Shown here one piece after another: positions 18,401 to 58,790 of a stretch of 64,000 nt of DNA. Source of the DNA: Dromaius novaehollandiae. Taxonomy: Eukaryota > Chordata > Aves > Casuariiformes > Dromaiidae. Each line of letters starts with the position of its first letter. The stretch's first letter is position 1. The stretch is taken from positions 107,924,387 to 107,988,386 of the forward strand of contig NC_088100.1 in NCBI RefSeq assembly GCF_036370855.1. The letters are read 5' to 3'. Position numbers and translations under genes: made by a program. Below the pieces are notes generated by a model, which saw only the letters and a list, made by a program, of their open reading frames with translations, was not told the DNA's origin and searched no databases.

Positions 18401-21400
18401 AATATGCAGGGTTCCTTGTCAGATCTGTTGTAAGTGACCTAATCACGAGCAGCTTTCTGCATGCCGATCTTTCCATCTGTAAAATCCTGGTTTCCCACTA
18501 ACAAATCACTTTCAATTCTAAATATGCACTCTATTTTTCTCTTCCTTTCCCTTGTACCTTACTATTCCTGTAGTGCCCTTTTCTAAAGTGTCCTCTTGGA
18601 CTGCCTGGAAATCCCTTCGCTTTCTGATCTGTAAGAAACACCACTTTGTTGACAATGGGCATGCTCAGCCTGTGAAATAGTGCATGATTCCTGCCTCAGA
18701 TCATTCTGTGATCAGAATGTAAAGGTACCGTGTCACTTGCTAAACTTTTGTTCATCATGGTGTCTCCTGATTTTCCATTTAGCTTCCAGACCAGCCAGCC
18801 TTGATAGTGGCAGAACATCCACTAGCAATAGCAATAACAATGCTTCACTCCATGAAGTCAAAGGTATGCTGTAGGTAAATTTACATACATGCTTCACTTC
18901 CATTAGTTTCTCTGTAAGATTATCTGTATGGTTTAAAACACCACAGCGTGTTTTCTCTTTAGATGTTTTATAACCTTTGTTCCCCAAATTAGAAAAGAGT
19001 ACAGATACTAAAGATCTTGTTACGTTTTTAATAAAAAGGGTGATGTTAGTATATAAGTTTAAAACTATTTTAAGCCAAATCTAACCCAAGTAACAGTGTC
19101 ACAGAACATGAATTCCCCCCAATTTAATTTAAAATCACTTATCTTTAAGCAGAGAAATAACTCCATTTTTTGTAGCACGTATACTGCTACTGTAAAACTA
19201 TATGTGCAATACAAAGTAGACAAAACGGCATATGTAATACTATCCTATAGACTTTTGTATTCTGCTTTTGAAAAATTAATAATGTTCGAGGATTTAGCAG
19301 TATTCCTAAATTTCTTATATTATGAGACTTGACATATTTTTATGTTGCTCGTGATAGCCATTCAATAAATTTTTAAAATTGGTATTAGCTGGAGACACAT
19401 AAGAGTAAAATGCTACCGGTTCAACACATCATTTAATATTCTTAGCTTACACTTACTAAATAGTATTCGTCAATATGCAATGCAAACTTAAGATATTTGT
19501 TTAGTTATTTTCTCTTTCCATTTGATTACTGTCTTCTATAAAAGATTCTTTGAGGTACGTCTTACCCCAGTTTGTATACAGAGTATCAGAAACTTCTGCT
19601 GTAAGCCACTCACCTTTCTTCAAATTTATTGTCATTGCTTAAAAACACATCTCTCTCCTAGAAAGTAGGAAACACAAAGTAGGAAATATTTGATTATTCA
19701 TATTTTTACTGCATTCACATTTACTGAAAATCAAGGAGAATTTCTGTTGTAGGATTTATTTTGTATTTAATGCCATATGCTTCTTCAGATCACAGTTGTA
19801 ATAAATTAGAAGTTGCAGCACAAACTGTTGGAGAAGTATCATTTCAGACTAGCTCTTGTTGAAGAACTATGTCGAAAACATTTTCTTTCCATTCTGTCTT
19901 TTGTATTTTATTTAATGTAAGACTCAAAAACAGTACACTAGAGTGTACACTTCACAGCGAGCAGGAACAATCATATGTTCAGCCTCTTGGAATATAGTAT
20001 TGTGTTGATAAAAGTCCAGGTTATAAGTGAAAGGTACTCTGTGTTCAAAGGCTATCATGTTATGTTTAAAAAGCCGGGGGGTGAAACTGTGTTCATAATA
20101 TATTTGGTTTGAGTCATACAGGACAACTGGATTCTTCAGTATTTTAACTAGAATTATTGTTAAGTGAATGTGATAACATTCCAGATTTGGGTAAGATTAT
20201 ACTGTTTAGCAGTTTTCATGTATTTTTGTTACAAAATACTTAACACTGTTTATCCCTAAGCAGGTGCAGTTAACAATCAAAGCAGGCCACAAAGTCACAG
20301 CAGCGGAGAATTTAGTCTGCTACATGAACATGAGGCTTGGTCTAGCAGCAGCAGCAGTCCTATTCAGTACTTGAAAGGTTATACCAGGTCTAGTCCTGTG
20401 CTCCAGCAAAGAATGCCTGAAACCCTGGATAGTCGTGGAAAACAGATCAAAACTGGTTCTCCTGGAAGTGAAGTTGTTACCCTACAACAGTTTTTAGAAG
20501 AAAGCAACAAGAGTACCTCAAGTGAGGTAAGTTTAAAAATATTTAACTTGCCTTTACTACATATTACCCATACACATGCACAGAATTAATAGAATATTTA
20601 TAGTGAGTAGAGTTGCTTTAAAACTTTGTGGAGATACTTATGTCTACATTAAGTAGTAGCGTGGACCAATAGTAGTAGACTTGTAGATTGAAACAGTTGA
20701 GGCAGAGGTCCTGATATCTGCACTATATGTGCTTTGGGGGCTTTAACTAGAACTAGTTCTAGTCTGGACCCGTAAAGCAGTGTCCATTAAGGAGATAGGA
20801 TCACATCTTCCCATTTAGTTTCATCCAAAAGCAATTCCATTTGTATACTCTGATACTGCTTTGCCATGTGAACCAATGTGGTAAGTGAGGACAGCTGGGA
20901 GCGCACTCCTGACCTGAACTTGAAAACTGCTGTAAGCAAACCCACTGCCAACTCAGTTTTTTGTTTTGAAAATACTTTTCTCAAATAATGAATGAAAATA
21001 AAAAAGACACAAAATACAGTCTGAGGTACCAAGCTGAGTAGGAACTGTGTTACTCTGGGATGAAGTGGCTCAGTGTACAGGAACAAAAGCCATTATTGCC
21101 TGCCTCAGCAATTAGTGCAGGTGTTCTAGTAGGAGGTGGTTAATTTATTCAGACTTTATCCTGATAAACTCTACTGGTTCTATGACACAAATCATTTTGG
21201 AATTTCACAGCTTGCCCCTTTCTGGGTTACTGAGTTAGGTGAAAAATGTCAGTGTCTGCTGCACAGAATTGTCCAATGTGTTGATGCTTGGCATGCTGAT
21301 CAGAGATTAGATGGAAGGCCATAAACTCAGAGTAGGTTTACTTACCTTCTCCCAGTTTAGCACCTGTCTTCAGTAAGAGCTGTTGTCAGATCTATCTTAT

Positions 21401-23648: not shown

Positions 23649-23719
<71 letters not shown>

Positions 23720-26700
23720 ACCTAGTTGCAAAGAGAAAATTGCTTGCTTGTAAGTAACTGTACAGAAATAGTTCTGAGGTGTGTGTGGGTTTTTTGTTTT
23801 TTTGTTTTTGTTTTTTTTAAGTAAAACACAGAGTTCTGTAGAATTGTTTTTCATTTGCCTCCACAAAGATTGCTCAAGAAAAAGTAAAAACTACAAGCTA
23901 AAAATTTATAAGTTGTTTCATATTTTTGACAGATAAAATCTGCAAGTGAAGAGAATCTTTTAGAGGAAGTAATGAAAAGCTTATCTGAATCTGCTGATTT
24001 GACAGGCAAGGAAAAACTAAGAAAACAGCCATCAGCCAGTTGTGGTATTGTGAGGTCATTAAGTGTAAAAAATACAGTTGATTTCTCAGATGGACGATCT
24101 ATTAAACCAGAACAACTTGTAAGGCCCAGCCTTCGTAAAACTGAAGATAACTATTTTACTAGCTCTCCAATAAAATTTACATCAGGTACTCAAGGGAAGG
24201 TCAAACCAGTTAAGGAAAAGATACAAGCAACAGTATCACAGCGGCAATCAAAAGATTGCAATCCTTATGCTACCTTACCTCGTGCAAGCAGCGTGATTTC
24301 TACAGCAGAAGGAACTACTCGAAGGACCAGCATTCATGATTTTTTGTCCAAGGACAATAGGCAACCTGTGTCAGTTGATCCAGCACCATCTACTGCTGAC
24401 AGAAGTGTTTCATCAACATCTAGTGAGTACTCTGCACAGCAGCTATCCTCTAATTTTTTTCACTGTGTGGCTTACAGAGTAGATTGTGTTCCACGAAATG
24501 ATCCAGTTAATATAGTTAAACCAGGTAATTTAGGTTGTAAATCTAACATGCCTAAGACTTCAGGGTTGGAAAGGTCTTTTCTTGAGAAAACTTTAAGCAC
24601 AGATATGTTTAATGATAAAGTTGGTATATCCGGTAATGATAGCAAAGGCTCATTTACTGTGGCCCAAGTGGCTCAGCCATTTTTATCCTTCAACACGGAA
24701 TTAGTTAGTAATATAAGTGGATTGCCTCAGAGATCTACATCAAAAACAACTGATCAGGCAATCCCGTCAACTTTTAGATCTGTCCCAAAAAATCAGGAAC
24801 AGCCTTCTGCTAATCAGAAATCTGATCACAGTGACCTACAGTCATCTCTAACTAGAGAATTTGTTTCTACCAGCTGTGTAAATGCTAGAGAGGCTGAATC
24901 CCCACTACTGGTTTCTGAAGATAAAAAAACTGTATGGTATGAATATGGTTGTGTATAAGGAAATTGTATTACTAAGTACATATAGTCGTATATGACATAT
25001 AAGTGTTCTTCTCAATGTTCACTGGGTTTAGAGAAGGTTTCCCTAAAATGAAGATGTAATTTCTTGTTAGATCTGTGGTTTGTTGCTTTCTACGTTTAGT
25101 GACATAGAGCTCAGTTGTGTACTGTAGCATGTGTTTGAATGTAAAATTGTAACTTCACCAAAGTTTGCATGAGATATTAATTGCACTGTATATATTTTGC
25201 ATGCCTTTAAAAGTCTTTATAATACAAGCTATATTTTTATTTGTCTCTCATTACAAATATTTTTTCTGTACATTATTGAATGAATGCATGTTAAGCCAAT
25301 CGCATGCTGCATTGCCAAAATTGGCACAATGAATTACATAATTTTAAGTATCAAGACAGTACTTTTCAGTTGTGCTCTTGTGTTCAGACGCATCAGTAAC
25401 ACATTGATTATGTATTTGGAGTAAAAATAGATTTATTTTCCTTCTTTTAAAATGTGATACTAATGAAAAGAAGCATTTAGAGAAATTTCAGTATCGTAGC
25501 CTTTTCATTTATGCCATCCTTCATGTGTTACTCTGCACAAGGAATGAGTTGTAGCCCAAATAATCCAGTGCCTCTAGCTTGCGCAATATGAATTACTGTT
25601 CGTATTTATTAAAACATTTGAATATTGTTCATAATCCTAAACATAAACAGTAATTCTTCTGAAGAGGTAATAAGTAGTCAAACTGTGTGCAGTACTCGCA
25701 GTGAAAAAGCAACCCTATCCACCTTTTCCCTTTCATATGCTTTGTCTTCCCACGTCTGGTGTACAAATGTGGTCAAGTATGCTGTTTTATTAGGAGTTAA
25801 GTAGCGTGATAGCTTTGAGACTCCTTACACTGTATGATAATAAAAACCTTTATTAATTATGGTGGAAATTCATTTTTTCTTTGTAACAGAAGTAATACTA
25901 ATGTAATAGAAAGAAGATGTGTAACAAAGTAACAGTAAAAATGTATTAAATATTAGTGCAACAGAAGCCAAGTAATTAAATTTTGCTTTCAAAATTATGT
26001 CAGTATAATAATGTTTAAGTAAGTAAATCATTAAATCCTAGATGACCACCTAAACAGAAGTGTTGAAAAGTAATTACCTAATATGCCACCATCTCTGCAA
26101 TTGCTTGGAACTCCTCAACAGAAGTTTAAAAGTTAAAATATTTAAGCTATAACTACATGTGGTTTTAGACATCAGCACTTTTTTAGCACCAGGAAATAGT
26201 TACTTATAATTATCTTATGCCAAAAGTGTATAGCTATAAAAATCCTGAATGAAAATATCTAAAGGAAAAATATTTAATTGAAAATAATGAATGTCATACT
26301 CTCATTTTTACAATTTAATTTATTTGGCCAACAGTTTTGTGGCAATCTTGCTGCTGCTGTGTGAGTTGAACTTTAATTCATTAGTGCTTGACTAGGGAGG
26401 GGTAGAAGTGTTGCAAAAATACAGTTCCTTAACAGAAATGTAGCAGACATATGTTAGCCTATAAAGTTTCATAGAAGAATTTCATAGGAGAATTGTTAAT
26501 AAAATGTGGAGAAAGTTGGATGTTTTAGAGGGATTCTGCGGAGGGTAAAATTACTGTTTCAAAATGTAAAACCACCTTCCTTTGCTGTGTTTGAAGACAT
26601 CCCTTTTTATTGGGCTGATAAATTTCTCCCTTCTCTTTAATGTTGATTACAGTGTGCTGTTTGTCATTGCTGTATTCTCTCTAAAATTATGTCTCGCCAT

Positions 26701-28649
26701 TTAAAAAAAGAAAAAGCCCAAAACCTTGAAGTATAATCCATCTCTTAATTTCCACATGCATTTGCTCTTACACATTAAGTGTTCTGGTCTTAGGTCACTT
26801 CATTCAGCTTCATTTCTATTAATCCATAGATGTGTTTAAATTAGTTTTGAGATGTATGGTGCTACTATCTGAGGAGTTGTAGACAAAATCTTATTAGCTT
26901 TAGCAATACTTACTATAAACTCATGCTGTGCTACTGGTATTTGTATTTTTTTTAATTGATTGCAAGCCTGTGTCCTCTAGTAAGACTCCTTTTTATGATC
27001 AGAACAGGGTTTGTAGCTAGAGGTAATATCTTTTATTTAAATCAGCTGGTATTGTTGGAGATACTAGATAAGCTTTCAGGTATGCTGTTATTTCTTGTTT
27101 GCAAGCTTTGTGTTGCTTATGTCCTTAGACTGTCACAGCTACAAAAAATACCAGTATTGTCTCCAGTTACTTTTGTTGAGAACCATCGAGCACTACCACT
27201 GAACCCCTGTTTGTAACTGTGAGCATGGCCAAGGTCTAAAGAGAAGTTTTAAAGATTACCCCTGTAGAGTGAAGTTAAAGCTTATTATCAAAGCAACAAA
27301 AGAAGTTTTTCCAGCCACTGTCTCTAGGGCACTTCAATTTATGTTATTTTATTTCTTTTCATACCACTAAGTTTTCTCATACAAAAACAAATTTGACAGA
27401 GGATATTTACATCTGATATTTAATAGCTTTTTAGCCTTGCCATGTTTTATTTACACCATTCCATTACGTTGGGGGCCACATTAAAACAATTTATTTCACA
27501 AATACAAAGGGCTTTGGAATAACTGAGGGTTAGTGTCTTTGAACATCATATGCTCTCATTGGATTCTAGACTAATCTTGTCCAGCTCAAACTACTGTTTT
27601 GCATTGTTTTCCAAATTTGTAATAAATTAATTACATTTCAGTTATGAGGGTAGTAACTGTTAAATGTTTGCGCTCCTGTTCTTGCTCCATTGAATTCAGC
27701 TGGAGCAGAGGAAGCATGTTGCTAGAGATTTTTTAATGTCTTTGAAAAAGAAATTGGCAACTTTTGTTTATTATATGAAAGAAAACAAATCTTCGTATAT
27801 ACAGAAGAATAGTTTTTCCACTGCTTTTGGGTCTTTATACTTCAACAATACATAGAGCATGGATGTCTCTTTTGGTTTGTACTGCTGCTCCTAGGCCATT
27901 CAAATGGCTAAATACAAAACACACAGGGCACTTGCTCCTTCCTTGGTCACTGCTGCCTTTAGAAATGAGAAGTTACGATTTTGCATGGTAATTACAAAAC
28001 ACTAAACAAGTGGCCACCAGCTGAAAACGGTTCTATTGTGAATAGATTCAATTTGCTTGCAGTGAAAGGTTTGCTTGATGCTTTGCTTTAAGTGAACAGT
28101 AAATTAAGATGCTGCATTTTGCATGTTCAATCTGTTGCATGCAAAGATAACTTTATGCTTTGCAGGATTGAATGTGAGCACTTCTGTAAATGTGTAGGAG
28201 GTTAAAAGGCGAAGGAAGATGGCTTAAGTTCCCTCCTTGGTTCATCAGACCTTGATTATGTCTGATATGTTTTTCCTTCTCACATGGGCAGAAATTTAGA
28301 CCTAGTATATATAAAAGTTGAGTATATCTGCTTGTGGCTTTGAAAATAATATCTGATTATTTTAAATGCGAAGATGAATTTTAATGAGTATAGGTGAGTA
28401 GGTACTTCCAGTGATCTTTGTTCCATCCCTCTTCACTGTCTTTTCCTCTTAAGAAAAAAAAAAAAAAGAAAAAGTGTTTGTATATCTTTTTGCTCTACTA
28501 ATAGGTAGAATGTATGTTAATACGTGAGGGTTTTTTTATGTCCTGATAAATACAATGAATAACATGAAATGCTTTTCTCTGCAGATGTGGAAGCTATACC
28601 AGAAAGCAGAAATGCAAAAAGCAGGTCTAGGGAGCAACAAAGCTCCTAA
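224..28649 (+). CDS. CCDC88A: CCDC88A (girdin/GIV), C-terminal half of gene, 5' part outside window
   Basis: Girdin is an actin- and microtubule-linked coiled-coil scaffold that binds and activates G-alpha-i and works downstream of growth-factor receptors. The window holds its last 14 constitutive coding exons: 224-400, 960-1121, 4815-5092, 5311-5454, 6621-6807, 7381-7526, 8148-8240, 8441-8655, 17201-17404, 17727-17798, 18783-18863, 20261-20526, 23933-24422 and 28585-28649. All joins keep phase and total 2580 bases (859 residues plus stop). The first seven encode Leu/Glu/Gln-rich heptads. The rest is the Ser-rich tail, with the conserved tyrosine contexts KTEDNYF and NPYATLP, which match the SH2-binding tyrosines of human girdin, and the ending [10 protein letters not shown] phase-compatible cassette exon lies at 16083-16166. 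Retaining the last intron gives a different C-terminus. The gene identity is certain from residue-by-residue resemblance to remembered human girdin; the two alternative tails are an inference about usage. Confidence 0.97.
960..1121 (+). CDS. CCDC88A: CCDC88A coding exon, coiled coil
   Basis: Acceptor CAAAG before 960 and donor GTAATT at 1122. It encodes 54 residues of Gln/Leu-rich heptads, from [14 protein letters not shown] to TQNAKLQ, in phase 0 at both ends. The sequence is nearly identical to remembered human girdin. Confidence 0.95.
1122..4814. other. CCDC88A intron, 3.7 kb
   Basis: AT-rich intron. Its only notable content is a short TTTG/TTTA tract near 2361-2390. The short open frames in it look like chance, and I see no recognisable repeat family or RNA gene. 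Confidence 0.7.
4815..5092 (+). CDS. CCDC88A: CCDC88A coding exon, coiled coil
   Basis: Acceptor TGCAG before 4815 and donor GTAAGA at 5093. It encodes [16 protein letters not shown] through EHKDLED and the first two bases of an Arg codon. Long heptad array, closely matching girdin. Confidence 0.96.
5311..5454 (+). CDS. CCDC88A: CCDC88A coding exon, coiled coil
   Basis: Acceptor GACAG before 5311, donor GTAAAG at 5455. It completes the split Arg and encodes [19 protein letters not shown] through RLRDENDR. Phase 2 in and phase 2 out. Confidence 0.95.
5455..6620. other. CCDC88A intron, 1.2 kb
   Basis: No gene, RNA or named repeat seen. Ends in a normal polypyrimidine tract and TTCCAG. Confidence 0.65.
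6621..6807 (+). CDS. CCDC88A: CCDC88A coding exon, coiled coil
   Basis: Acceptor TTCCAG before 6621, donor GTATGT at 6808. It encodes [16 protein letters not shown] through [10 protein letters not shown], matching girdin with only scattered substitutions. Confidence 0.96.
6808..7380. other. CCDC88A intron, 0.57 kb
   Basis: AT-rich intron ending in CTAACAG. Nothing else recognised. Confidence 0.65.
7381..7526 (+). CDS. CCDC88A: CCDC88A coding exon, end of coiled coil
   Basis: Acceptor CTAACAG before 7381, donor GTGAGT at 7527. It encodes [19 protein letters not shown] through FHVEQRQY plus the first two bases of Ile. Confidence 0.96.
7527..8147. other. CCDC88A intron, 0.62 kb
   Basis: AT-rich intron ending in TTTACAG. 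No other feature supported. Confidence 0.65.
8148..8240 (+). CDS. CCDC88A: CCDC88A coding exon, coiled-coil exit
   Basis: Acceptor TTTACAG before 8148, donor GTACTA at 8241. It encodes [16 protein letters not shown] followed by [14 protein letters not shown], the junction between the coiled coil and the basic, disordered tail. Confidence 0.95.
8441..8655 (+). CDS. CCDC88A: CCDC88A coding exon, basic membrane-binding region and Ser-rich tail
   Basis: Acceptor GCTAACAG before 8441 and donor GTGAGT at 8656. It encodes [18 protein letters not shown], the basic stretch that in girdin contacts phosphoinositides, then [20 protein letters not shown] through LGTKKSS. It leaves one base (A), which can join either to the cassette exon at 16083 (ATG) or directly to 17201 (ACC). 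Confidence 0.96.
10557..10580. repeat. (TTTA)n microsatellite
   Basis: About five TTTA units running into poly-T inside the large CCDC88A intron, read directly. Confidence 0.85.
14819..14852. repeat. Alternating purine-pyrimidine inverted repeat
   Basis: GTGTGTGTATATAC is followed at once by ATATATACACATACACAC, so the two halves are near reverse complements. It is an imperfect GT/TA/CA dinucleotide tract, probably a degenerate microsatellite. Confidence 0.7.
16083..16166 (+). CDS. CCDC88A: CCDC88A cassette exon, 28 codons, basic insert
   Basis: Acceptor ATAAAAG before 16083 and donor GTAAGA at 16167; 84 bases, in frame. With the A left by the previous exon it reads [14 protein letters not shown] then [14 protein letters not shown], and the final T joins CC of the next exon to give Ser before MNDLVQ. 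The same basic insert is present in some human girdin isoforms, so this is a conserved alternative exon, not a new one. Confidence 0.88.
16167..17200. other. CCDC88A intron, 1.0 kb
   Basis: Contains the polypyrimidine tract and a CA/TG-rich stretch near 16395-16515. No gene seen. Confidence 0.6.
16317..16374. repeat. Polypyrimidine tract
   Basis: Nearly uninterrupted T/C run, mostly T with a short C8 block, just after the cassette exon. Such tracts can bind PTB-type splicing repressors; that role is inference only. Confidence 0.75.
17201..17404 (+). CDS. CCDC88A: CCDC88A coding exon, Ser/Thr-rich tail
   Basis: Acceptor CATCCCAG before 17201 and donor GTAGAG at 17405. It encodes [20 protein letters not shown], then [20 protein letters not shown] and SKQLLNNK, plus one base of Asp. 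Very close to human girdin. Confidence 0.96.
17727..17798 (+). CDS. CCDC88A: CCDC88A coding exon, short
   Basis: Acceptor GTATAG before 17727, donor GTAAGA at 17799. It encodes [20 protein letters not shown] and SRVH plus one base of Ala. Phase 1 in and out. Confidence 0.95.
18343..18429 (+). other. CCDC88A: Candidate CCDC88A cassette exon A (29 codons)
   Basis: AG at 18341-18342 and a consensus GTAAGT donor at 18430 bracket 87 bases. In the phase imposed by the flanking exons it has no stop, reading [18 protein letters not shown] then [11 protein letters not shown]. It is not in the girdin isoforms I remember. It could be a pseudoexon; only transcript data would decide. Confidence 0.4.
18574..18630 (+). 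other. CCDC88A: Candidate CCDC88A cassette exon B (19 codons)
   Basis: A long pyrimidine tract ending CTGTAG before 18574 and donor GTAAGA at 18631 bracket 57 bases. In the host phase this reads [19 protein letters not shown] with no stop, and it can join 17798 or candidate exon A upstream and 18783 downstream. Not remembered from any girdin isoform. Confidence 0.42.
18783..18863 (+). CDS. CCDC88A: CCDC88A coding exon, Ser/Asn-rich
   Basis: Acceptor TTTAG before 18783, donor GTATGC at 18864. It encodes [20 protein letters not shown] then ASLHEVK plus one base, as in human girdin. Confidence 0.96.
18864..20260. other. CCDC88A intron, 1.4 kb
   Basis: AT-rich intron; no gene, RNA or repeat family recognised. 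It ends in a tandem acceptor (CCTAAGCAG). Confidence 0.65.
20261..20526 (+). CDS. CCDC88A: CCDC88A coding exon with tandem (NAGNAG) acceptor
   Basis: The acceptor reads AAG-CAG. Using the first AG (exon from 20261) gives VKAGAVNNQ as in human girdin. Using the second (exon from 20264) drops one codon and gives VKGAVNNQ. Donor GTAAGT at 20527. The exon encodes [20 protein letters not shown], then [14 protein letters not shown]-like sequence (here [18 protein letters not shown]), ending STSSE in phase 0. Confidence 0.95.
21882..22590 (-). mobile_element. CR1 LINE 3' fragment, inverted
   Basis: Starts at TCATAGAATCACAGAATAAT, the reverse complement of the typical CR1 3' tail, followed by GGGATGGAAGGGTCCT. 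Further on, phrases such as TGTCATCTGCAAACTTGGTG and AAGTCAAGGTAGATGTTGCC match remembered bird CR1 3' sequence read in reverse. It is 5'-truncated, with many substitutions and small gaps, so it is an old copy. The inner edge is approximate. Confidence 0.88.
23652..23716. repeat. (TC)n microsatellite, about 32 units
   Basis: An unbroken TC dinucleotide run, preceded by the alternating purine-pyrimidine stretch TGTGCGCACGTTCGCGCA. Confidence 0.97.
23933..24422 (+). CDS. CCDC88A: CCDC88A penultimate coding exon: G-protein-activating motif and tyrosine sites
   Basis: Acceptor TTGACAG before 23933 and donor GTGAGT at 24423. It begins [18 protein letters not shown], then [10 protein letters not shown], which aligns with the G-alpha-binding and -activating motif of human girdin (SSDFLGKD). 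The Phe known as F1685 is replaced by Leu (TTG, 23999-24001). Downstream KTEDNYF and NPYATLP keep the two tyrosines that bind SH2 domains in human girdin, and RTSIHDFL is conserved. The spliced form joins TCT-A to AT of the last exon. Confidence 0.95.
24423..24958 (+). CDS. CCDC88A: CCDC88A alternative C-terminus by reading through the last intron donor; ends YEYGCV
   Basis: If the donor at 24423 is not used, the frame stays open for 178 further codons to TAA at 24956-24958. The tail is Ser/Asn-rich, contains [15 protein letters not shown] and [14 protein letters not shown], and ends VWYEYGCV. The last six residues equal the PDZ ligand of the paralogue Daple (CCDC88C), including its two regulatory tyrosines. 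An AATAAA follows at 25839-25844. The long open frame and the preserved end argue for a real alternative last exon, but its use is inferred. Confidence 0.78.
24959..28584. other. 3' UTR of long isoform and/or intron before last CCDC88A exon
   Basis: For the standard isoform this is intron; for the read-through form its first part is 3' UTR. No gene or repeat family seen. A poly(A) run lies near 28453-28467. Confidence 0.65.
25839..25844 (+). terminator. Candidate poly(A) signal for the long CCDC88A tail isoform
   Basis: AATAAA about 0.9 kb after the read-through stop codon, followed by T-rich sequence. Candidate only; AT-rich DNA yields such hexamers by chance. Confidence 0.35.
28585..28649 (+). 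CDS. CCDC88A: CCDC88A terminal coding exon (standard girdin C-terminus)
   Basis: Acceptor CTCTGCAG before 28585. With the A from the upstream exon it reads [18 protein letters not shown] and QSS, then TAA at 28647-28649. Human girdin ends SRSREQQSS, so this exon is certain. Confidence 0.96.
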
Positions 28650-36041: not shown

Positions 36042-36479
36042 CTACTTAATATTTTCATCAAAATGTATGATTATTGGATCGTGTCCTGTTGATTTCACAA
36101 ACTTCAGAAAGTCTTCAGGGCTTAATCCCATGGTTGCAGAATTTGTCATTGGATGAAAATATACCCTTTCATGGCCATCTTCCAGAAAGCCAGCATCCAG
36201 TACAAACTTCACATCTCCTTGGTCACAGAAGAGGGCTAGTGGTGTTGCACATCCTTGGCCCACTTTTAATTTTTCCAACATGGCATTTTCATTAGCAAAT
36301 CTTAGATTTCCACTCCCAACCCTCAGTTTTTTAGCAAGAGCGTTCAAATCAATCTGCCTGTTGTGTAGAACAGTTACCAACCAGAACCCTTTCTTCTTTT
36401 TGTCTTTAAGAAAAAGATTTTTACTGTGACCTCCTTTCATGTGTTGGACATAGGGCATCATTTCTTCAACAGTGAATAC
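36042..36479 (-). CDS. PRORSD1: PRORSD1 exon 2 (editing domain)
   Basis: Minus-strand acceptor TTTTCCAG lies just above 36479 and the stop TAG at 36042-36044. It has 145 intact codons. Family marks include KGGHSKNLFLKDKKK, LRVGSGNLRFA and KVGQGCATPLALF, plus HPMTNSATMGL near the end. Confidence 0.95.
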   Translation of the reverse strand, partial: VFTVEEMMPYVQHMKGGHSKNLFLKDKKKKGFWLVTVLHNRQIDLNALAKKLRVGSGNLRFANENAMLEKLKVGQGCATPLALFCDQGDVKFVLDAGFLEDGHERVYFHPMTNSATMGLSPEDFLKFVKSTGHDPIIIHFDENIK

Positions 36480-37603
36480 CTGGAAAATAAAATTAGTATA
36501 GTGTGAGACTCTATATCCCATTAGATTTTTAGTTGCTTATTGACAGGTATCTTTTGTTAAGTATTTAGAAAATCCTGAATGTTATACTCAGCCTAAAAAC
36601 TGTACCCTTTTATGAAGAAATTTTAAAAGAACACAAATAAAATGTGACATACTGGTCTTACAGACTTTCTCAATCATTTCTCTCTGATGTATACAGCAAG
36701 CGTATCACACTTCAAAAGGGGAAAAAGGCAGCTCTGACAGCACTGTCTTGTGCAGATCCACCATACATGGATCGTTATGATATGTATTTTATGATATGAT
36801 ATGTATTTTGAATTGGGAGTGAGGAAGAAATTTGGAAAGGATTGTGCAGCTATTGCATTTTCTAGACTGGGGTTTTGCACTGGAGTGCACCAGTCCACCC
36901 TTGACTGGTGGACTTACATGCTGAGAAATTCACTATCAAGTAGTCCATCAGCATGCTGTAGCTCTTGAAACAGGGGAATTAGAGGGGAAAAGGGAGTTTT
37001 GCCAGCTGGGGTGTGAGCCACAAAGTCCTAAGGGGAATGACCTAGCGCATATTCTTGAAACAGTTACAAAACTTTTCTGCTAGGCTTGGGATTCGTAAGT
37101 ACACTTTAAGGGAAACACAAATTTTGATAACTTCAAGATTGATACTTAGTTATGTTTAAAAAAAAAAAAAAAAAGTCTAATCTGTCCTGTAATCTATTTT
37201 GTCCTGTCATAAGTAGAACTTAATTTCTGCACTGAAAAAAAAAAAAAAATCCTAAGGATGTAAGGAAAAAGCATTGCTAAAACTACTCTTGGAATGTTTA
37301 AATTGCAAAGGTACCTGGAAAGGATTTTAAGCAGAGTAACTCGTTAATGCACACAGCTGTGCAAGTCCCTAACGTGCTTTTAAAAGTGACAGGCTTCAGG
37401 GGCGGATTTCTCCCTCCCCCTCCGGACGGCCCTGCTCCTAGCCACGCGGGCACTGCCGGGCTGGCCGGGCTGCCCCCCACCCGTGGCCCCGGCCCACGCC
37501 CGGGCCTACCTGGGGGTGCTCCGCCGTGACGGTGGTGATGCCCAAGCCCCGCAGGTGCTGCTCCAGCACCTCCCGCAGCCTGTGGCGGCCTCGGCGCAGC
37601 CAT
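36042..37603 (-). CDS. PRORSD1: PRORSD1 (PrdX/ProXp-ala-type tRNA-editing domain protein)
   Basis: Free-standing homologue of the prolyl-tRNA synthetase editing (YbaK-like) domain. Relatives hydrolyse mischarged Ala-tRNA(Pro), and activity here is inferred from family. Two exons are visible: 37510 and above (end REVLEQHLRGLGITTVTAEHPQ in one frame) and 36479-36042 (VFTVEEMMPYVQHMKGGHSK through HDPIIIHFDENIK, 145 residues and stop). The joined reading matches remembered mouse Prorsd1. The problem is the start: the well-placed ATG at 37603-37601 (GCCATGG context) is one base out of frame with the conserved reading. The only in-frame ATG is at 37929, which would add a long low-complexity leader. 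The human gene is a pseudogene (PRORSD1P), so damage here is plausible, but exon 2 looks intact. Confidence 0.8.
36480..37509. other. PRORSD1 intron, 1.0 kb
   Basis: Contains two poly-A runs (about 37158-37174 and 37236-37250). No gene seen. Confidence 0.7.
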
Positions 37604-47600: not shown

Positions 47601-50600
47601 TGTTCTTTTCAAGAATTGCTTGTCATCCCTAGTATGCCTGTAGCAGAAAATTGAAAGGTCTCTTTCTGCATCTTTTCTTTAATTAAAGAGAGAATATGTG
47701 AAAGTTCTGAAGGGCTGCAGACAGCTATTTTGTTGTGAGAATGAGGTTTCCAACTCTGATTTTTGAAATGGGGAAAAAAAGTATATGCTAACTCCCAAAC
47801 CAGCCTTCTGCCTTTTTTTCAGTTAGTGTTAATGATTCCATTAAACTAAAAAATATTTTCCAGAAACGTAATTCATTCATGTAAAGATTTAAACTTTATT
47901 GTGCCTTTTATTAATCCTGATACTATGGACAGAGAGGAGGGGAGCTGTGCTTTCTAATGTTTGTTTCTTGTGTTTGGGACTGACAACACAGCAGTCTTAA
48001 TAGTTTGTTATTTTAGTGCTGTGCTGCCTTAATGGCAAAGGGACCTATGCTGTTGGACCGTATCGCATGATTAGAAGTTCTGAATTAAATGGGGGAAGTT
48101 GGCACTAAGATTACAACTTCTGATCTTATTTTAACAAGGCACTTCCTTTACTACTTATGATTCTGTACAGGGTGAAAATCTGATGGTTTTAGCAGAGGCA
48201 ACAGTTGCTTTAGCAGAGATGTTAGAACTGAAGGCGGATTCCACAGGTCTGGTAGAGGGGACTGTAATTGAGTCTCGGAAAGACAAAGGAAAAGGGTAGG
48301 TCATCTGTTGTCTTCGCAACTTTAATGGAGCAGTTTGTAAGAATGCAGAGATAGTGTTCAGCTGGTTAATACCTCAATATTGAGGTTTAACATTGTATTT
48401 TAAAAAAAAGTTGGACAAAACTTTAACAGTCTTTTTTGCAGTGTTTGTAACTAAATTGTTGAAATGTAGTTTTACAGCATGAGAGCCAGAAAATGAAGTT
48501 ACAAACTGATGAAGCAAATTTCATCATACCACAGAAATGAAATATTGTCTGCACAGGAAACATTTTAAAATGCAGATGTATTTTTAAAAGTCATTATCAG
48601 GAGGGGTGATCAAATGAATAATCATAAAATAATAGTTATGTTATAAACAACTTATCAAAAATTATATGACATTTTACTCTTTAAAATATTTTGAGCCTTT
48701 TTGCAGGTTCTCTATAAACAAGATTTGTTCCACTTCTTAAACATAAACTGAATATTGGAAAACTGTTAACAAATATATATCTCTGTGTGTGTATGTGTAT
48801 ATACACACACACATATATGTATTTATTTATTTATTTATTTTCACCTGTATAAATATGAGCTTAAGTGAGTCATGTGCTTTCTGGCCCAGAGAAAAAGACT
48901 GAGATTTCACTTAGCATGTGAAATCAGTCTGTATTTGAAAGTTGAATATGCGAAATTCTTTATTAATCTACAAAAATGGAAAGAGTACAATATGCTTCTG
49001 GGTTTTTTTGCGCTTCACTTCTAACACTCTCGTAGCATGATAGTAGATTGTGTCATAAGAATATTTTGCCTGTAATCACAAGTACACTGTTTTGTCTTTG
49101 CTTACCTACCATAGCTATGAAAATGAGATGTTATTTTTGTACATTATTTTTTCCTTCTCTCTTTCTGCTCTTCACTAGTCCAGTTACCACAGCCATCATC
49201 CAAAGAGGAACTCTGAGAAAAGGCTGCGTTTTAGTTGCAGGGAAGACCTGGGCAAAAGTGCGTTTCATGTTTGACGAGAATGGCAAAGCCGTAGATGCAG
49301 CCTCTCCAGGCATCCCAGTGGAAATCATGGGCTGGAAGGAAGTCCCTTCAGCAGGAGATGAAATCATTGAAGTAGAATCTGAGGTACAGTAAGAACTGTT
49401 TAATGGAAGATTCATATTGTGGTAAAGTGGATAGGCGGCAGGAGCTGAGTGAGGAATAAGTGGTAGCTTTCACTCTGAAAAAACAAGATAATGTGACAAA
49501 AGATGAAGGCCAGGCATGGGTATTAAATGTAGCCTGAGCTAGGCATTTTGTATGAGGAATAAAGATTTGCACATTGTCCCTTTCTTTCTCCCTTTACCAC
49601 CCACCACCTCTGGTGTGCCAGACCCTTATGTCCTCCCCTCCTCTCCATGCATCCAGGTAAACCTACTTTATAAATCACACAATGAAAGTGGACTGTTGCT
49701 TCAGCAGAAGATAAGTCACCTTTGGTTCATTCCTTGTGCTTCTCATGGTCATCCTGCCTTCCTCTTATGCCTTGTTTGCAATGACTGCAGTACTAAACAG
49801 CTTCTTTTTGGATTATCTGGGATATGTTCTAATGTGTTCCCTTTCCAAAGGCACAGAAGACTGTTTTTCTCTTTTACTTGACCTCGTTATAACCTTACCT
49901 AGAAAACAATCTAGTACTTAATGGTGTTAGTGTTTTTAATTCTGGAATGAGAGATAATTAGATTCTGACAAAAGAATGTGCATGTCGTTTACTTGGAATA
50001 GGTGTTTAGAGAGCTGGACAGATACTATTTGAAAGAATGAATGGTATCAGAGATATCTTAAAAATAAGACTTGAATCATGTTGCTGTAGCTAGTGCTAGT
50101 TTTCTGCATCTTTGTGGCAAAATTTATTGTTAAATGTGAAAGAAAATTAATAAATCTGTAGAGAAAACATGAAAGATTGAAAAATCATTAATGTGGAGTT
50201 TTCCAGTGCCGTGTTTTAAAAGAGAATTTCTGTCTCTCTTTGCCCAGCAAAAGGCACACCAAGTTGTGGCTTGGAGAAACTATGTTGAACAACAGGAGAA
50301 GATGAAAAGGGATTCGGAAGTTATCGAAGCAAAGCAAAAGGAACACAGGACGGAGTATGAGAAGAAGCAACAGAAGCTAGCCCATCTGACCTGGAGACAG
50401 AGAAAGGCAGTGCTGTACAAGGCTAACAAACATCTCATGTGTTCAAAGCCAAAAGAGAGAACAGAGATTGACAAAAATGTGCTATCAGTAATTGTTAAAG
50501 GTACTGTCATATTCTGTTCCATTCTTTTCGTGCTTCTCTGATCTGAAGCATAGTTCTAAAACATTAACAGAATTTCTATTATCAGAAGTGGGGTTAAAAT

Positions 50601-53600: not shown

Positions 53601-55100
53601 CAAACTTTTTCTAGGCAAAAGGTGAGGAGTCCTTTTCCTTTAAGTAGTGCCATATGCTCTGATGAGCTGTGCATAAGAATTTTCGCTTTGATACTTTCAG
53701 TTCTGTCATGACAGAACTTCTTATGAGGGCTTTTTCTTTGAGCATAATTGTTTTGGTACAAGGTTAAAAGTAGTGGATGTGCTGAATGCAACAAGCAAGG
53801 GAGACAAATGCTCCCCCCTTTAAAAGGGAAGCATATATAAAATGGTGTTTCTTGTATTGGTGACTGCTAATTTTAGGCTGTGCTGCAAGTTTAACATTAC
53901 AGAATAAATGCAGCAGAATTTCACCTACTGTTTGAAAAGCAATGATCTCTTGTAGTCATCAGCTGCTAATTATTTTTCAGGTGTTGTATATGGATTCAGT
54001 GTGAAAGCCAATGAAACTATTAAAAAGCTGGCTGCTAAGAAGGGAATAAAAATTAAAATTCACAATATCATCTATCATCTTATTGAAGATGTAAAACATG
54101 AGCTAAATAGCAGATTACCACCATCTATGGTGGAAAATACAATAGGTGAGTTTTCACTGAGTTGTAAATACATCTTTGCTTCATGATATGCCCTTATTTT
54201 CCAATTAAGTGTTCCTACTATATTGAATACTTAGTATTCTTTTGTATCTGCTTTTCTTTTTTCTTATAAAGCTTAATAAGTGGAAGAGTGTAGCTTGGTT
54301 CTAATTAATAGTAGCTTGTACTTCACTCTCTTGTATTTCATACACTCTATTTTTTTTTCTTTCAGGGGAAGCTTCTGTACTTGACACCTTCTCTGTAACA
54401 GTAGGAAAAAGTAAAGTTCCAGTAGCTGGGTGCAGAGTACACAAGGGGCAGCTAGACAAAAAGATGAAATTTAAGTTAATCCGTAAGGGAGATGTTATTT
54501 GGAAAGGTAAGTTTAATTGCTACAAAAGCAATGTTTGTTCATATTTGGTATTAGATATGGGTATTTCCCTGGGAAGTCAGTGCAAAATGTGTGCATGCAT
54601 CTCATCATGCAATCCCATGTACTATTTAGGATGGTTTTGCCCCAACTAGAGAAAAGCTGCAACCTCACTGTACTCTGTTATCCAGACCTTTTTCTCACTA
54701 CCAACTCTTGATAGGAAAGCAGTAGCAACACACAGTTTACCTACTGAAAGGGATGGATATCTGACTTCCAGACTTTAATCAACTGCAAGTGGTTATTGTC
54801 CCTAGTTTTCCTTGCTTACAGTTTCACCATGTAGCCACAGAAGGAAACTGTTTGAGAGGAAACCAAAACACTTATGTACTGCGATGTCAGTGGGGTCTCT
54901 ATTTTTCTTTGACATTTTTTCTCTTTGTAGGATCCTTATCATCACTGAAGCATCATAAAGCTGATGTCCAGATAATAAAAACTGGTATGGATTGTGGCTT
55001 AAGTTTAGACAAGGATATAGATTTCAATGTTGGAGATGAAATTATCTGTTATGAAGAAAAAGAAGTTGGACAGACAACTTCCTGGGATCCGGGATTTTAA
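41674..55100 (+). CDS. MTIF2: MTIF2, mitochondrial translation initiation factor IF-2
   Basis: GTPase that places fMet-tRNA on the mitochondrial small ribosomal subunit. Complete coding sequence in 13 exons totalling 2181 bases (726 residues; human is 727): 41681-41905, 42427-42532, 43143-43314, 43772-43932, 44390-44566, 46628-46767, 48171-48295, 49179-49383, 50248-50500, 52933-53073, 53981-54145, 54366-54506 and 54931-55100. All phases agree. Order: mitochondrial targeting leader ([16 protein letters not shown], basic, no acid before Glu10), IF2-N-like segment ([10 protein letters not shown]), G1 GHVDHGKT, G2 region [11 protein letters not shown]3 DTPGH, G4 NKCD, then domain II, the charged linker, IF2 domain 3 and the C-terminal tRNA-binding domain, ending TSWDPGF. 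The family's catalytic His in HVDH/DTPGH contexts is present. A decoy copy of one exon boundary lies upstream of exon 10. Confidence 0.98.
41681..41905 (+). CDS. MTIF2: MTIF2 coding exon 1, start codon and targeting leader
   Basis: Acceptor TTTTCAG before 41674; ATG at 41681 in GAAGAAATGA. 75 codons, [20 protein letters not shown] to HYRHLATKE, in phase 0. Aligns with the human leader MNQKLLKLENLLRF, which supports this start. Confidence 0.95.
42427..42532 (+). CDS. MTIF2: MTIF2 coding exon 2, IF2-N region
   Basis: Acceptor ATGTAG before 42427, donor GTGAGA at 42533. [18 protein letters not shown] then [17 protein letters not shown]; basic stretch and small helical N-domain. Confidence 0.94.
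43143..43314 (+). CDS. MTIF2: MTIF2 coding exon 3
   Basis: Acceptor TTTAG before 43143, donor GTAAAA at 43315. [18 protein letters not shown], then [18 protein letters not shown], closely following human MTIF2. Confidence 0.94.
43772..43932 (+). CDS. MTIF2: MTIF2 coding exon 4, G1 and G2 motifs
   Basis: Acceptor TTGTAG before 43772, donor GTATGA at 43933. Contains [19 protein letters not shown] (P-loop) and [13 protein letters not shown] (switch I). Confidence 0.96.
43933..44389. other. MTIF2 intron with G-run
   Basis: Carries a G-rich block at 44014-44044 and poly-T near 44190-44207. No gene. Confidence 0.75.
44014..44044 (+). repeat. Poly-G / G4-type tract
   Basis: G14 followed by A-separated runs of six Gs, read directly. 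Can form a G-quadruplex on the transcribed RNA in principle. Confidence 0.9.
44390..44566 (+). CDS. MTIF2: MTIF2 coding exon 5, G3 motif
   Basis: Acceptor TTCACAG before 44390, donor GTACAG at 44567. [20 protein letters not shown] then [22 protein letters not shown] is switch II. Confidence 0.96.
44567..46627. other. MTIF2 intron, 2.1 kb
   Basis: AT-rich; no gene, RNA or named repeat seen. Confidence 0.65.
46628..46767 (+). CDS. MTIF2: MTIF2 coding exon 6, G4 motif
   Basis: Acceptor TTGTAG before 46628, donor GTAAAG at 46768. [20 protein letters not shown] then [17 protein letters not shown] is the guanine-specificity motif, and SAL of G5 lies at the exon end. Confidence 0.96.
46768..48170. 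other. MTIF2 intron, 1.4 kb
   Basis: No gene or repeat family recognised. Confidence 0.65.
48171..48295 (+). CDS. MTIF2: MTIF2 coding exon 7
   Basis: Acceptor GTACAG before 48171, donor GTAGGT at 48296. [18 protein letters not shown] then [16 protein letters not shown]; start of domain II. Confidence 0.95.
48296..49178. other. MTIF2 intron, 0.9 kb
   Basis: Contains a TG/TA/CA stretch running into (TTTA)n near 48786-48840. No gene. Confidence 0.7.
48786..48840. repeat. GT/CA inverted tract and (TTTA)n
   Basis: GTGTGTGTATGTGTATATAC followed by ACACACACATATATG, partly self-complementary, then about five ATTT units. Confidence 0.75.
49179..49383 (+). CDS. MTIF2: MTIF2 coding exon 8, domain II
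   Basis: Acceptor TCACTAG before 49179, donor GTACAG at 49384. [20 protein letters not shown] through DEIIEVESE, the beta-barrel domain II. Confidence 0.95.
49384..50247. other. MTIF2 intron, 0.86 kb
   Basis: No feature beyond splice signals recognised. Confidence 0.65.
50248..50500 (+). CDS. MTIF2: MTIF2 coding exon 9, charged linker helix
   Basis: Acceptor TGCCCAG before 50248, donor GTACTG at 50501. [18 protein letters not shown] through [11 protein letters not shown]. The Lys/Glu-rich middle matches the mitochondrial IF-2 insertion, which stands in for bacterial IF1. Confidence 0.94.
50501..52932. other. MTIF2 intron, 2.4 kb, with duplicated exon edge
   Basis: No separate gene. Near its end lies a diverged copy (about 52150-52231) of the following intron/exon boundary, described on its own. 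TG/TA tracts lie near 52484-52536. Confidence 0.7.
52150..52231 (+). repeat. Diverged duplicate of the MTIF2 exon 10 acceptor region (decoy)
   Basis: From ACTTCAGCATTA to GGTGATGTAGATGCATCTGT this aligns with 52874-52953, including the AG and the first 20 or so exon bases. Read in phase it gives GDVDASVG and then TAA, against [11 protein letters not shown] in the true exon. It looks like a local tandem copy that lost coding value. Confidence 0.72.
52933..53073 (+). CDS. MTIF2: MTIF2 coding exon 10, domain 3
   Basis: Acceptor ATACAG before 52933, donor GTGAGT at 53074. [20 protein letters not shown] through [10 protein letters not shown], matching IF2 domain 3. Confidence 0.95.
53074..53980. 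other. MTIF2 intron, 0.9 kb
   Basis: No other feature recognised. Confidence 0.65.
53981..54145 (+). CDS. MTIF2: MTIF2 coding exon 11
   Basis: Acceptor TTTTCAG before 53981, donor GTGAGT at 54146. [20 protein letters not shown] through PPSMVENTI. Confidence 0.95.
54366..54506 (+). CDS. MTIF2: MTIF2 coding exon 12, domain 4 (tRNA-binding barrel)
   Basis: Acceptor CTTTCAG before 54366, donor GTAAGT at 54507. [20 protein letters not shown] then [20 protein letters not shown]. Confidence 0.95.
54931..55100 (+). CDS. MTIF2: MTIF2 coding exon 13 and stop
   Basis: Acceptor TTTGTAG before 54931; stop TAA at 55098-55100. [20 protein letters not shown] then [17 protein letters not shown], ending TSWDPGF exactly as in human. 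Confidence 0.97.
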
Positions 55101-56479: not shown

Positions 56480-58618
<2,139 letters not shown>

Positions 58619-58790
58619 GGCGAGGCGGTGAGGGGCGGCGGGCCCAGGCACCACGCGCCGCGGCGGAACGAGGCCTCACCAGCGACCTGCTCGCGGAATG
58701 GCGGCTCCCCGAAAGAGCGCCGCGCCGGCCCGCACGGGGTTTCCACCCTCGGCAGAGGAGGGGTGGCACGCTGCGCCGCGTCGCGCCGCG

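Follow-up and report, generated by a model that had tools for sequence, protein, structure and literature searches.

We found that, in a window of 64,000 nucleotides of genomic DNA from Dromaius novaehollandiae (the emu), the reading frame of the girdin gene CCDC88A continues past a splice donor into a long open extension, positions 24423 to 24958, which is very probably (about 0.94) this genome's copy of the girdin long isoform GIV-L described by Ear et al. 2021 (PMC8042451). The long girdin end is already known and is not special to birds; the additions made here are small, namely a comparison with the last exon of the paralogue Daple (CCDC88C) in the same genome and the observation that the two genes differ only silently in the codons of the ligand. 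The sequences for both ends of girdin are intact in this genome, and the features involved are the following, with positions counted from the first letter of the window, meaning the whole stretch analysed.

20260..20526, + strand, CCDC88A exon further upstream that encodes the G-alpha binding motif, donor GAG/GTAAGT at 20527; the open frame begins at 20260, which is not a placed acceptor
23933..24422, + strand, CCDC88A exon common to both forms, acceptor TTTTTGACAG/ATA in phase 0, donor CTA/GTGAGT at 24423
24423..24958, + strand, read-through extension of the long form, the rest of a 178-codon tail, ending TVWYEYGCV and then TAA
25839..25844, + strand, AATAAA, the canonical poly(A) signal that comes first downstream of the long-form stop, where the long transcript may end
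28585..28649, + strand, the other last exon, coding sequence and stop, which gives the standard short form, acceptor TCTCTGCAG/AT

The gene is taken as CCDC88A from the residues of the G-alpha motif frame and of the SREQQSS exon, both of which lie on the same strand as the extension; the residues of the 20260-20526 frame are presumably girdin's G-alpha binding motif. On the + strand, the CCDC88A frame is free of stops from 23930 up to the TAA at 24956-24958, crosses the donor at 24422/24423 without a break and, counted from the donor-spanning codon that starts at 24422, comprises 178 sense codons up to 24955. A sequence-only reading of this DNA had claimed an unspliced frame without a stop for 178 codons, with the end VWYEYGCV followed by TAA, and reading of the frame bears this out. 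Joining 24422 to 28585 across the intron (24423-28584, 4162 bases), with the codon begun at 24422 being completed by the first two bases of the downstream exon, yields the standard girdin end, SREQQSS. The long end has 178 residues and the short end 21, a gain of 157. The donor CTA/GTGAGT matches the consensus at 7 of 9 positions, a score equalled or bettered by 160 of the 3843 GT sites that were scored across the window. Within the extension, a donor-like CAG/GTAATT at 24525 matches at 8 of 9 positions and exceeds the standard donor by simple consensus. Positions 23652-23716, about 220 bases upstream of the acceptor of the shared exon, hold 32.5 perfect tandem copies of TC.

With splicing from the donor at 24423, the exon would be joined to 28585 and girdin would end in SREQQSS as the short, ligand-free form. 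When this donor is left unused, the exon would run on to the TAA at 24956-24958, and the long transcript would probably end at a poly(A) site after the AATAAA at 25839, that is, by polyadenylation inside the intron. The product would exceed the short form by 157 residues, would carry the PDZ ligand EYGCV at its C terminus and would represent the junctional form. A variant poly(A) signal, ATTAAA, is present at 25608. The intron past the long-form stop also contains four ACTAAT sites (25459, 25897, 27570 and 28497), a sequence that we take to be a Quaking-type core. Ccdc88a is among the mouse genes with Qki-regulated splicing, the event being left unspecified in the relevant passages of PMC6429586.

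A search of the genome with the whole frame, at E values up to 10, found only the window itself, and the Daple locus was therefore located through two upstream CCDC88A exons. These matched contig C5 at about 19.53-19.55 Mb with 65% identity (E 2.2e-27, one TAG being flagged in the matching open frame) and 48% identity (E 2.5e-6), and two extra weak matches in the same searches (E 2.6 and 2.8) were taken as chance. In addition, the 20260-20526 frame matched a frame at this locus containing SPGSEMVTLEEFLEESN (E 2e-7). Judging from the upstream exon matches, its own G-alpha motif frame and its end, the C5 locus is Daple. Two further features belong to the comparison.

C5:19551090-19552103, last exon of Daple, phase 0 acceptor, unbroken to its stop, 1014 coding bases, ending TVWYEYGCV
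24929..24955 of the window, + strand, nine girdin codons for TVWYEYGCV, the same residues as the Daple end, predicted C-terminal PDZ ligand

The girdin shared exon and extension together make up 1026 coding bases and start in phase 0, compared with 1014 coding bases, likewise in phase 0, for the Daple last exon. The last nine codons of the two genes differ at five bases, all of them third positions and all silent, and in a simulation over these codons five out of five random changes came out silent with a probability of 8e-5; divergence of this kind points to selection acting on the peptide after the genes separated. The first parts of the two last exons also align, with 26% identity over 134 columns (E 2.6e-4). 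We scored pieces of the girdin frame against Daple and against shuffled Daple, with 300 shuffles per piece. Scores were 96 for the girdin frame in full (shuffled mean 44), 78 for the frame minus its last ten residues (shuffled mean 44) and 78 for the part before the donor (shuffled mean 39), none of these scores being reached in 300 shuffles; the extension scored 66 (shuffled mean 39; reached in 1 of 300). Without its last ten residues, the extension had no detectable similarity to Daple (score 31; shuffled mean 39; reached in 294 of 300), and the support for coding that comes from the paralogue is thus confined to the part before the donor and to the extreme end.

Other searches gave no relative of the tail. 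A Pfam scan of the 342-residue frame returned nothing at the curated cut-off, and a Codanin-1 match (E 0.27) was taken as chance. Among solved structures, no convincing relative of the whole frame was found (best E 0.85), and none of the last 30 residues at E values up to 10. In viral contigs, patterns of the tail matched at 9 sites, without any being confirmed as a relative, and a DNA search of the emu genome (1.47 billion bases in 271 contigs) returned a single match, the window itself. Elsewhere in the window, open frames were seen at 36042-36536 (- strand), 49036-49392, 50173-50541, 54305-54649 and 54765-55100 (+ strand) and 58298-58675 (- strand). Among these frames there are presumably exons of mitochondrial initiation factor 2, a frame resembling a prolyl-tRNA synthetase-associated domain protein and one with a ubiquitin-type start.

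We take the exon at 23933..24422 as the counterpart of human exon 31 of PMC8042451. According to passages of that paper, skipping of the splice after exon 31 adds about 150 residues and a PDZ-binding motif to human girdin; the occurrence of EYGCV in worm and fly was the starting point of the study, and a high degree of conservation of the girdin motif is described for the vertebrates and invertebrates that were analysed. The same passages report that the zebrafish girdin C terminus binds the PDZ domains of ParD3 and Dishevelled, that human GIV-L requires the ligand to pull down Dishevelled and to localise at cell junctions, and that binding of GIV-L to G-alpha-i3 is enhanced by Dishevelled. 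The extension in the emu gene carries at its C-terminus this EYGCV motif of GIV-L, here a putative ligand, and we infer by analogy with the published human and zebrafish work that in this species, too, the transcript would be used and the protein would bind its partners and act at junctions. By RT-PCR, as reported in PMC8042451, the long transcript was present in some human cell lines and missing in two of the five named (DLD1 R-type and HCT116), indicating that use of the long form is not universal. The long girdin isoform is described again in a 2025 paper (PMC12278729), and, for the terms searched, PMC10943482 cites the long-isoform paper in its reference list only. The words "chicken" and "avian" do not occur in the main text of PMC8042451, and our literature search found no report of a chicken girdin/GIV isoform.

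The core of the sequence-only reading, an unspliced alternative end of girdin with a Daple-type PDZ ligand, agrees both with the TVWYEYGCV end of Daple in the same genome and with the isoform described in PMC8042451. The contrast that it draws with mammals, whose standard girdin it describes as having no such ligand, is wrong, since the same source reports that skipping of this splice produces the isoform in human as well and that the motif is conserved in the vertebrates and invertebrates examined there. That contrast with mammals repeats an older view, as found in a passage of a 2015 paper in which the motif is said to occur exclusively in Daple (PMC4484057); motif-less constructs were used in earlier mammalian girdin studies, as stated in PMC8042451. 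As to the proposal that birds keep an ancestral alternative last exon, its ancestral look is supported by the uncut last exon of Daple, and the bird-specific retention is contradicted by the distribution given in PMC8042451.

Could the frame simply be open by chance past a normal donor? Geometric estimates under first-order Markov models of three local sequences gave probabilities of 1.3e-6, 2.7e-6 and 1.3e-5 for 177 open codons, a length attained in 1, 0 and 0 of 50,000 simulated trials for these sequences, and the probability that the last six residues would be YEYGCV is about 9e-9 from base composition. Read-through past the donor closed within 0-20 codons in all nine other presumed CCDC88A exon frames, these being stop-to-stop frames taken as CCDC88A exons with donors picked by eye among the three best-scoring GT sites, some lower-ranked sites leaving longer read-through. 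Nothing was found in favour of a chance frame. With the end of the extension matching both the Daple end and the published GIV-L, we consider a chance frame to be of negligible probability, in keeping with the earlier statement that a chance origin was very unlikely.

Two other alternatives draw on the same observation, namely that the extension has no detectable Daple similarity before its last ten residues. It might be a relic, an ancestral last-exon tail that is unexpressed in this lineage and still unbroken; however, it holds 178 codons without a stop at 38% GC, its divergence from Daple at the ligand is silent only, and some human cell lines do express the isoform according to PMC8042451, all of which make a relic unlikely. 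Alternatively, girdin might have acquired the PDZ ligand by gene conversion or copying from Daple and not by common descent, which would fit nine identical final residues beside an otherwise dissimilar extension. Five third-position differences within nine codons, however, argue against recent copying, and passages of PMC8042451 report EYGCV in invertebrate girdin, where its authors know of no Daple; we regard such a transfer as highly improbable, more so than a relic. The reading as the emu copy of GIV-L is preferred over all three.

The long exon is read as probably ancestral because Daple keeps its last exon uncut, and by this comparison the long end would have come first, the short girdin end being a later addition through a donor within the ancestral exon. 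In evolutionary terms, the long end of girdin and the end of Daple look like the same exon, with the short end representing splicing inside it. According to PMC6702192, Dishevelled is released from Daple when tyrosine kinases phosphorylate the motif, and, among the terms searched in PMC8042451, motif phosphorylation appears for Daple only. A broader and rather doubtful proposal may be advanced, in which the long end would be the ancestral last exon of girdin and Daple, the short end a later splice invention removing the PDZ ligand, and the tyrosine-kinase switch common to both proteins. If this were true, one kinase signal would free the girdin long form and Daple from Dishevelled together, through their identical two-tyrosine end.

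The published design of GIV-L thus holds in the emu genome, and the description of girdin as a protein without a PDZ ligand is incomplete for this genome too. Compared with human GIV-L, the emu sequence belongs to the same gene and has the same EYGCV end, and its long form would arise by skipping the same splice, the one that leads to the standard last exon, with a gain of 157 residues against about 150. Compared with girdin, the Daple last exon is alike in its start phase, its nearly equal coding length and its TVWYEYGCV end; it differs in that the Daple end is a single unbroken last exon whereas that of girdin has a donor inside, and the part of Daple corresponding to the girdin extension is detectably alike only at its end. 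Finally, the motifs of GIV-L and Daple are called similar, not identical, in the text of PMC8042451, whereas in the emu the last nine residues of girdin and Daple are identical.
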